From assembly GCA_007117565.1 (NCBI GenBank), contig SKGG01000027.1:1-7444 (forward strand): a DNA stretch of 7,444 bases, read 5' to 3'. Positions 280 to 2,543 of the stretch are shown in pieces. Each line of letters begins with the position of its first letter. Position 1 is the stretch's first letter. The notes under the pieces are model-generated. The model worked only from the letters and a program-made list of their open reading frames with translations, was not told the origin of the DNA and did no database searches. This stretch comes from Candidatus Izemoplasma sp. (GTDB taxonomy: Bacteria; Bacillota_I; Bacilli_A; Izemoplasmatales; Izemoplasmataceae). The translations under genes were made by a program, and so were the position numbers.

Positions 280-1095
280 TCAACGCCAGTTATCATGAAT
301 GAAGCGAGTCAAGGCGATAAAATCATCGACACTCATCGCTTCTGCGCGCACATCATAGGGGAGTTCACGAGACTCGAAAAACGGCTCGAAAACGACCTTT
401 TCAAGTGGGTATTTTTGCGTTAAGTTGTTGGTTAAAGTCTTACGTCGTTGCGCAAAACTTTGCTTAATAACATCAAAAAACAAGGGTTCTTCATCGACGG
501 TTAGCGCTCTTACTGGCTTGATACTTAACACCACCATCGCTGAATCGACCCCTGGTATGGGCTTAAAGACGGTCTTAGGTACTTTAAACGCGTAATGTGT
601 GTGGGATCGGTATTGCACCGCCACACTTAAAGCGTTGTAATCTTTCGTTTTAACAGGGGCACACAGGCGCATCCCAACTTCGTGTTGAACCATCACAACG
701 ATGGTATGAACCAAATTAGATCTTTCTAACAATCTAAACAATATGGGGGTTGTGATGTAGTAAGGAAGGTTGGCGACTACGATGGCCCCCTCAAGGTTAG
801 GATCAATGGTTTTTAAATCAGCGTCGATATCTCGCTTTAAAATATCATCTTTGATTAAAATTAGGCCCTGTGACTGATAATTTTCCTGAAGGTTTGGAAT
901 GAGGTCTTTATCGATTTCGTAAGCGACCACACGTCCTGCCTGTTTAAGAAGATGTTTGGTTAAAGCACCGGTTCCAGGGCCAATCTCGACAACAGTTTCG
1001 TGTCCTTTTAAGTTTGCGAGACGAACTATTTTTTCTTGCATCCCTTGGTCTACCAAAAAGTTTTGTCCAAAATACTTTTTTGCTTTAGGTTGCAT
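280..1095 (-). CDS. rsmA: 16S rRNA (adenine1518-N6/adenine1519-N6)-dimethyltransferase RsmA
   Basis: RsmA (KsgA) uses S-adenosylmethionine to dimethylate two adjacent adenines in the 3'-terminal helix of 16S rRNA, a late step in small-subunit assembly. The 271-residue protein has the family layout: KYFGQNFLVD near the N-terminus, SAM-binding motif I EIGPGTG (37-43), the acidic motif II YEID (59-62), the catalytic NLPYY motif (109-113), QHEVGMRL (137-144), FKPIPGVDS (177-185) and the C-terminal helical domain with SFAQRRKTL. The ATG at 1093-1095 is chosen over an upstream in-frame TTG at 1111-1113. It gives the usual family N-terminus and has an AGAGG Shine-Dalgarno (1105-1109) 9 nt upstream, and the TTG codon would sit within that region. 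The start lies 11 nt inside rnmV, implying translational coupling. The rnmV-rsmA pair is conserved in Bacillota. No convincing terminator follows the TGA stop, so some readthrough into spoVG is possible. Confidence 0.96.
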   Translation of the reverse strand: MQPKAKKYFGQNFLVDQGMQEKIVRLANLKGHETVVEIGPGTGALTKHLLKQAGRVVAYEIDKDLIPNLQENYQSQGLILIKDDILKRDIDADLKTIDPNLEGAIVVANLPYYITTPILFRLLERSNLVHTIVVMVQHEVGMRLCAPVKTKDYNALSVAVQYRSHTHYAFKVPKTVFKPIPGVDSAMVVLSIKPVRALTVDEEPLFFDVIKQSFAQRRKTLTNNLTQKYPLEKVVFEPFFESRELPYDVRAEAMSVDDFIALTRFIHDNWR

Positions 1096-1621
1096 GGAGC
1101 ACCGCCTCTTCAATTTGATTTAGTGTGATGTTGTGTCGATTCAACGTTTGGTAAAAAGCCTTTGCATTTCCCATAGGAAGGTGATAGTGACGGGCGATTA
1201 ACCATCTATTTCGCCTGGCGTCTCGAGGATAAACACAGTATAAACGATAGTCTTCCTTGTTTAACGTTTCACGTGAAACATTCGGGGTGTGTATGTGTTT
1301 GAAAGCCTCTATTAAAACATCGTCTGAGGCATGCTCAACTCCTATTTTTCCACGTTTTTCATCTGTACAATCTTCTTTTTGAAGGTGAATGTGCGCACAT
1401 GGCCCAAGAAAATCTTCGAGTCGTTTTCGTATTCGGTAACCAGCACTGTCTGGATCTAAACATAAAACAAACCGTGCGCCTTTTTGTTTAAGTTGTTCGA
1501 GTTCTTCAAAGACGTTTGAGGGGATGTTAGAGCCTCCGGTAATCAACAGTCTTATTTGAGGGAATCGCTGCTTTAGACGCATCGCGTCATGTTGTCCTTC
1601 GACAATATAGATTGCTTGCAT
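1085..1621 (-). CDS. rnmV: Ribonuclease M5 (5S rRNA maturation)
   Basis: RNase M5 is a Toprim-domain endonuclease that makes the mature ends of 5S rRNA from its precursor, acting on a ribosomal-protein-bound substrate. The 178-residue product is close to the roughly 185 aa of the B. subtilis enzyme. The Toprim motifs are intact: IVEGQHD (6-12, catalytic Glu8), ITGGS (27-31), LDPDSAGYRIRKRL (55-68, metal-binding DPD at 56-58) and the M5-specific GVEHAS (94-99). A C-terminal helical segment follows. The ATG at 1619-1621 has an AAGGAAG Shine-Dalgarno (1631-1637) and begins 1 nt after the upstream lipid-kinase stop; the 3' end overlaps rsmA by 11 nt. An unusual element is the linker NVSRETL (114-120), between the Toprim and C-terminal domains, which is encoded by a near-perfect parS palindrome (see 1265-1280). 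Confidence 0.95.
   Translation of the reverse strand: MQAIYIVEGQHDAMRLKQRFPQIRLLITGGSNIPSNVFEELEQLKQKGARFVLCLDPDSAGYRIRKRLEDFLGPCAHIHLQKEDCTDEKRGKIGVEHASDDVLIEAFKHIHTPNVSRETLNKEDYRLYCVYPRDARRNRWLIARHYHLPMGNAKAFYQTLNRHNITLNQIEEAVLHAT
1265..1280. other. parS: Predicted parS site (ParB/Spo0J binding) inside rnmV
   Basis: The minus strand reads TGTTTCACGTGAAACG, which matches the bacterial parS consensus TGTTNCACGTGAAACA at every position but the last. The inner 14 bp GTTTCACGTGAAAC (1266-1279) is a perfect palindrome. ParB dimers load at such sites, spread along the DNA by a CTP-dependent clamp mechanism, and recruit SMC condensin near the replication origin. In frame it encodes VSRET, in the linker between the two RNase M5 domains. 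A second site lies at 2423-2438. The match is seen directly; ParB binding is inferred because no parB is in the window. Confidence 0.87.
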
Positions 1622-1622
1622 G

Positions 1623-2543
1623 TTAAATGACTTCCTTAAAATACTTTAATCGTTTTGGGTGCACATAAATGGGCATCGTTTTTGGCAGAACTCTGATTTC
1701 TTGGTTACCACTGTTTGCGGCCTCGCCATCCACGTTCCAAGCGCGGTGATGATTGGTTATCACTTTGACACGTTTGCCTTTAAGGTAGGTGACACCAGGG
1801 ATCTTTTTGATTTTTAATAAAAACGCCAACAAGAAGAAGACATTGTTAAGCAATGGCACATAAGGGAAAGCAATCACATTCACTTCTTGATCATCAAGCT
1901 GGGGGCGTTTAACCATATCAAACCCTGCAACATAACGTGAATTCAAAATCAAGATAAGGGCATAAACCCCTAGCTTCTTTTGGTCATCCACATGAATTTC
2001 AGCTTTAATCATTGGTACGGTAAAAAAGGCTTTGACTCCTACAATAATGTACGCAGCGTACCCTAAATAGCGTTTTAATCTTCGGTTCGCTTTGTAGGAA
2101 ATATCGACGTAGTTTCCTATGGCACTTACATAGGCAAAATAGCCTTGAGCGCTTTGCACCACATCCATCCTTCTTAGGTGATTAGCTTCAATAACCCCAA
2201 GAGCTTTACGGATGTTTTTCGAGATGCCCAGCGTGTGTGCTAAGTCACACGCTGTGCCGCTTGGTAAATACCCAATAGGCGGTGGATTTTTGGTTTTAGC
2301 GACCGCGTTCGTGATTTCATTCATCGTGCCATCACCACCACTAACCACGACTAAATCAACCCTGTTAAAGGCCGCTTCTTTATAGAGTTGTGTCGCATGT
2401 CTTGGGTACTCTGTCGGCGCAATGTTACACGTGAAACCTAAGGCTTCTAGTTTTGCGACCACCTCTGGAAGTGCTTTTTTGAAAGCCGCTTTCCCACTAT
2501 GCGGATTGTAGATAATTAAACATCTTTTCACTTTCATCACCAT
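1623..2543 (-). CDS. dgkB: Diacylglycerol kinase-family lipid kinase (DgkB-like)
   Basis: Soluble DgkB-type kinases phosphorylate diacylglycerol to phosphatidic acid with ATP at the inner face of the membrane, recycling diacylglycerol released by lipoteichoic acid or glycolipid synthesis. The 306-residue product has the full DAGK catalytic fold: IIYNPHSGK (10-18), the nucleotide-binding SGGDGTMNE (68-76), LPSGTACDLA (93-102), RRMD (124-127) and VDGE (271-274), whose Glu274 aligns with the catalytic glutamate of Staphylococcus DgkB. Length equals that family (about 300 aa). A hydrophobic stretch at 229-246 may help membrane docking. It is the first gene of a set with rnmV and rsmA. The start is uncertain: the ATG at 2541-2543 and another ATG two codons on (2535-2537) both lack a good Shine-Dalgarno, and the promoter predicts a leaderless mRNA. 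Substrate could also be sphingosine- or other lipid-like, as in YegS/YtlR relatives, so the symbol is tentative. The coding sequence carries a parS site at 2423-2438. Confidence 0.88.
   Translation of the reverse strand: MVMKVKRCLIIYNPHSGKAAFKKALPEVVAKLEALGFTCNIAPTEYPRHATQLYKEAAFNRVDLVVVSGGDGTMNEITNAVAKTKNPPPIGYLPSGTACDLAHTLGISKNIRKALGVIEANHLRRMDVVQSAQGYFAYVSAIGNYVDISYKANRRLKRYLGYAAYIIVGVKAFFTVPMIKAEIHVDDQKKLGVYALILILNSRYVAGFDMVKRPQLDDQEVNVIAFPYVPLLNNVFFLLAFLLKIKKIPGVTYLKGKRVKVITNHHRAWNVDGEAANSGNQEIRVLPKTMPIYVHPKRLKYFKEVI
2423..2438. other. parS: Predicted parS site (ParB/Spo0J binding) inside the dgkB-like gene
   Basis: The plus strand reads TGTTACACGTGAAACC. It matches the parS consensus TGTTNCACGTGAAACA at all positions but the last and retains the full GTTNCACGTGAAAC core. 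On the coding strand it encodes GFTCNI (residues 36-41 of the lipid kinase). Its centre is 1158 bp from the site in rnmV. Binding by ParB is inferred from the consensus match and from its pairing with the other site. Confidence 0.85.

Follow-up and report, generated by a model that had tools for sequence, protein, structure and literature searches.

What keeps a palindrome in the codons of rnmV, the gene for a ribonuclease M5-like protein of Candidatus Izemoplasma: the protein that it encodes or the DNA itself? In the window, by which we mean the whole 7,444-nt stretch analysed here, this element (site A) reads CGTTTCACGTGAAACA on the plus strand and TGTTTCACGTGAAACG on the minus strand, one mismatch away from TGTTTCACGTGAAACA. 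It fits the palindromic parS consensus TGTTNCACGTGNAACA of chromosomal sites at 15 of 16 positions, and positions 1266–1279 within it form a perfect 14-bp palindrome. The first-pass annotation had described the match, the palindrome and the VSRET peptide that the site encodes, and a direct reading of the window agrees on all three. With up to three mismatches allowed, the window contains two parS matches against 0.09 expected, a number reached in 1 of 200 shuffles. The second match, in the dagK-like gene, was absent from the first-pass list (Table 1). We predict with high confidence that site A is a working chromosomal parS and belongs to a two-site cluster in dagK and rnmV near the origin.

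Table 1 Features of the window that bear on the predicted parS sites
Feature	Position	Strand	Description
ksgA, 16S rRNA dimethyltransferase	280..1098	-	Pfam RrnaAD
rnmV, ribonuclease M5-like, 178 aa	1085..1621	-	Pfam Toprim and DUF4093 over cut-off; solved RNase M5 6tpq; adjoins ksgA
Predicted parS site A, TGTTTCACGTGAAACG	1265..1280	-	VSRET, residues 115–119 (V115–T119) of rnmV; 15/16; same codons in six relatives
dagK-like lipid kinase gene, host of second site	1623..2543	-	Pfam DAGK_cat
Second predicted parS site	2423..2438	-	GGTTTCACGTGTAACA on the minus strand, TGTTACACGTGAAACC as matched in the window; encodes GFTCN in dagK; core GTTNCACGTGNAAC exact

The host protein scores 81.1 bits (E 9.9e-23) against NCBIfam TIGR00334, under the naming cut-off of 110.65, and is therefore named here as divergent, RNase M5-like. 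The RNase M5 chain 6tg6_A (116 residues) aligns to window residues 3–111 and ends just before site A, which supports the placement of the site in a linker; the alignment of the full-length chain 6tpq_B continues to window residue 166, and the Pfam DUF4093 match (residues 92–174) spans the site. Among 54 RnmV proteins that lack site A, residues 115–119 rank 161, 164, 172, 166 and 171 of 172 for variability. The columns of VSRET are thus among the most variable where the site is absent, so that the case for VSRET being retained for the sake of the protein is weak. Site A lies in the linker after the Toprim domain, inside the frame that encodes RNase M5, where VSRET and its variants are tolerated; such tolerance suggests that DNA, not protein, fixes these codons.

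A contig scan for relatives gave one, a Candidatus Izimaplasma draft (locus L001 in genome G001), and the others were taken from the order of that genome (90 genomes). An RnmV match is present in 68 of the 90 and the core GTTNCACGTGNAAC in 51. The rnmV regions of 59 of the 68 RnmV-positive genomes were covered (60 loci); of the nine uncovered, four lack an exact core, and in the other five the sole core is off the contig of rnmV. Among the 59, the core lies at the rnmV codons of the window in six (G001, G044 and G055–G058), and the dagK site is found in 11, again at the codons that it occupies in the window. Exact cores number 12 in the assemblies of the six site-A relatives, two per genome, and all lie in dagK or rnmV. 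In L001, site A reads TGTTCCACGTGGAACA, which is still a perfect palindrome with both sides altered together, and encodes VPRGT instead of VSRET.

Conservation at the two levels can be separated codon by codon. When the seven site-A carriers are aligned, all of them share the third base at 6 of 173 ungapped columns: four of these are the consecutive site codons GTT nCA CGT GnA, and the remaining pair comprises the start codon and a glutamate codon. The encoded residues vary (S/P/T and E/G), only at the positions where parS allows any base. The 12 dagK carriers behave alike, with identical third bases at 5 of 297 columns, of which four are the site codons and the fifth is a tryptophan. That the carriers are related could by itself suggest a chance match, or shared ancestry without selection. 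Outside the site, however, third bases agree between the window and each carrier at 28–46% of aligned RnmV columns, against 4/4 site codons for all six, and the resampling nulls for order and class rnmV also speak against this reading, which we regard as the least credible of the explanations considered.

Since the rows of the seven-carrier comparison had been selected for having site A, and the comparison is circular to that extent, trees were built and a recoding test was applied to the full set of 61 rnmV genes. Synonymous recoding was repeated for 1000 rounds with the codon use of each genome in this gene block. The rnmV genes (61, the window included) contain 11 core sites against a recoding mean of 0.13 (maximum 2), and the dagK genes (60) contain 12 against 0.10 (maximum 2). 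In ksgA (59 genes), pta (37), HIT (55) and HAD (56), the same test found zero core sites with zero expected. These numbers bear directly on the idea that RNase M5 function maintains VSRET and that the DNA match is a by-product of codon usage. In its favour, all nine proteins of the homologue search, the window's included, keep V[SP]R[EG]T (their DNA was compared for the window and the Izimaplasma draft), and near codon 33, where other genomes carry a site, siteless proteins are often already close to IS.ET. Such a protein constraint is nonetheless very improbable, given the variability of these columns in siteless proteins, third bases that stay fixed while residues change, and the excess of observed over recoded sites. 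We regard the combination of a protein that is free at site A and a DNA that is not as strong evidence, from sequence comparison, for selection on the DNA sequence itself. The first-pass suggestion that the DNA is selected as a centromere element is accordingly supported by the codon and recoding tests, and the comparison that it had proposed, of synonymous positions of the 16-mer in related rnmV genes, finds them conserved, strongly in its favour.

The order also shows where else the core can sit. A different rnmV position near codon 33 (site B) is occupied in three order genomes, and one further in-gene rnmV position in L044. This locus (L044:3464-4766, genome G039) has three cores around rnmV-ksgA, two of them at separate codon positions inside rnmV; its dagK has none. 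The ksgA gene of the window carries no parS site; in some relatives a site lies inside ksgA or at or beyond its 3′ end (L044, L052, L053, L061 and L111–L114). The block also retains sites in four genomes that gave no RnmV match: in G074 and G078 these are located in dagK, inside ksgA and upstream of dagK, and in G075 and G077 at or beyond the end of ksgA. The dagK site of G074 and G078 (L111 and L114) is kept as GGTTTCACGTGTAACA, identical to the 16-mer of the window. Because sites persist in the block where RnmV has no match, the cluster follows the place on the chromosome rather than rnmV as such. Elsewhere in the order, exact cores occur in unrelated genes, namely a hisB-like gene (L128:5225-5803), a urocanase (L130:4521-6560) and a pyridine nucleotide oxidoreductase (L131:5132-6070), and some others sit where no ORF of 60 codons was found. 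Cores in other genes indicate that rnmV is not the rule and that parS seats turn over. A plasmid search with the rnmV-dagK DNA gave no match.

A ParB match (TIGR00180) is present in 68 of the 90 order genomes, 66 of them over the curated cut-off. Five of the six site-A relatives have it (G044 and G055–G058). The ParB profile search gave no match in the nearest relative, G001, a 1.1-Mb draft, and this absence is likely a gap in the draft. The same search found no ParB in G036 and G039, which carry sites of this block, and only a weak match in G040. Just before parB, all five site-A relatives with ParB have an ORF that matches Pfam AAA_31 and CbiA (MinD/ParA) over cut-offs (5/5) and scores under the cut-offs of the NCBIfam ParA models. 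Several ParB-positive order genomes, among them G002–G004 and G006–G011, show no exact core. The sequence GTTTCATATGAAAC, possibly a variant parS centred on CATATG, occurs in three genomes that have ParB and lack the exact core (G007:C1:1258614, G009:C1:1599756 and G011:C51:5461), 24–29 kb from dnaA in the two in which dnaA is placed; the only further match among the 90 genomes is in G046, which has an ordinary core elsewhere.

The ParB paralogue Noc binds a related palindrome, the Noc-binding site NBS (TATTTCCCGGGAAATA; PMC7383237), and a Noc-binding site was considered and rejected for site A, whose centre is CACGTG rather than CCCGGG and whose position 1 is G rather than A. Site A carries G and A, as in parS, at the two positions that differ between the motifs, and not the A and C of NBS. 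On the protein side, R173 and G201 are reported as parS-type residues, and Q and R as their Noc-type counterparts (PMC7383237). In our own reading of this numbering on ParB proteins of the order, GKSR is found in 11 of 11, so that they carry R at the R173 position and not the Q of Noc, and the G of GHAR/K (G201 position) in 10 of 11. The ParB of G063 (L123:4720-5580) has AHAR where the other ten have GHAR/K, at a position reported as absolutely conserved in ParB. One ParB was scored against NCBIfam, with the Noc model on top at 215 bits, under its cut-off of 315, and TIGR00180 at 169 bits, over its cut-off; among solved structures, the best relative of this ParB is Spo0J (177 bits; Noc, 134).

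With dnaA as a proxy for oriC, distance from the origin was measured in the relatives, the window being too short. In the 12 genomes with both on one contig, sites of the block lie 12.1–14.2 kb from dnaA. Five of these genomes are the site-A relatives G044 and G055–G058, and the sites of the remaining ones are at other places of the dagK, rnmV or ksgA region. The first-pass annotation had noted neither this closeness to dnaA nor the presence of parS at further rnmV codons and in the rnmV of further lineages. We infer that ParB is present in the genome of the window as well. By analogy with established ParABS systems, a ParB dimer would load on the palindrome, close as a clamp and slide to neighbouring DNA, and the resulting ParB complex would serve ParA (and SMC) in moving or folding the freshly replicated origin region; binding, sliding and segregation at site A are expected on the same basis.

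Beyond the order, RNase M5 matches were found in 199 of 247 class-sample genomes (158 over cut-off). From these we analysed 90 rnmV loci, a non-random sample (30 by score and 60 down the list, with most order members and a few others omitted). An exact core lies in rnmV, or starts at most 25 nt before its profile start, in 10 of the 90 loci. Within the coding sequence, 10 sites in 9 genes compare with 0.17 expected by recoding (maximum 2, 1000 rounds). The 370 kb of these loci contain 14 cores, of which 10 fall in the 49 kb of rnmV. Eight of the class sites are site B, in the stretch TNG[ST]xV[SP]RET. The whole assemblies of the ten genomes contain 15 exact cores, 13 at rnmV and the remaining two in G104, about 3 kb or less away from it; six of the ten have a single exact core, located in rnmV, and all ten have a ParB over cut-off. 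Weaker matches (up to two mismatches, exact cores counted) are no commoner than in a reversed control in 7 of 11 genomes checked, and G241 has one additional one-mismatch site just before rnmV. Across the class sample, the number of exact cores in a genome varies between 0 and 9 (the maximum being reached in G149 and G237), with at least one in 148 of 247 genomes and none in 99. The only exact cores in the assembly of G114 (L223) are two that lie within rnmV or at its start.

In four of these class genomes (L205, L221, L223 and L224), the site starts 10–25 nt before the rnmV profile start, as might be expected if the palindrome were not a centromere and served instead as the operator of a transcription regulator for dagK-rnmV-ksgA; the site of L223 falls in a possible N-terminal extension of rnmV. 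An operator accounts poorly for a sequence whose tolerated positions match those of parS, for sites placed within the codons of two or three genes at positions that differ between lineages, or for sites that are kept where RnmV is not found and cores that lie in unrelated genes elsewhere in the order. We therefore consider an operator unlikely, and a chromosomal parS by far the better reading of site A.

How often parS has entered rnmV was addressed with three trees. The first comprised 58 of the 61 loci (L047, L060 and L075 dropped), with RnmV and DagK in the data and no support values, and places the seven site-A carriers in one group. In the second, of 29 chosen loci out of the 61 with RnmV and DagK left out, six carriers group with a support of 100 and L048 falls outside. 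Site A is thus limited to one group, with a placement of L048 that differs between trees, and may have a single origin despite the position of L048 in the 29-locus tree. The third tree was built from RnmV only, with the site columns dropped (149 rows, labels counted among 20 labelled rows, many forks weak). On it, sites A and B need two changes each, three in all where two is the minimum. The three site-B genes of the order and the eight of the class fall in different sets (support 98), each together with siteless genes. As sites A and B occupy different codons, parS has been gained in rnmV more than once.

Much of this agrees with known systems. The widespread chromosomal parS, as in Bacillus subtilis (TGTTNCACGTGAAACA), has the same palindromic core, clusters near the origin and is matched by Spo0J-type ParB in the relatives studied here. 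Sites are few here, however: every one of the six site-A relatives has two exact cores, compared with 10 parS sites in B. subtilis (PMC7022226). Placement within coding sequence is shared with Pseudomonas aeruginosa, where 9 of the 10 sites parS1–10 are predicted to be intragenic and a single site near the origin is enough (PMC4368675), so a parS in coding sequence is a known kind of element. In the present case, several lineages have sites in one and the same gene, rnmV, and such reuse does not appear in the available part of the PMC4368675 account. A literature search found no paper that links parS to rnmV or RNase M5 by title or abstract, and the tables of the Livny 2007 parS census could contain such a site. 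What seems new, as judged from the genomes compared, is the recurrence of parS in rnmV, in some genomes as the only exact core. We lean towards regarding rnmV as a preferred and reused centromere seat, in which several class lineages have their sole exact core, at least two codon positions have been used and the centromere dictates amino acids.

The predicted parS in rnmV gives a clear example from nature of a centromere that overlies codons, in which constraint on the DNA can be separated from constraint on the protein. Genomes with a single core in rnmV, if their weaker sites are irrelevant, would be simple systems in which to study the sufficiency of a single near-origin parS and its effect on the host gene. 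The choice of rnmV may reflect an origin-near place combined with a tolerant linker, or a link between ParB loading and the genes of rRNA maturation.
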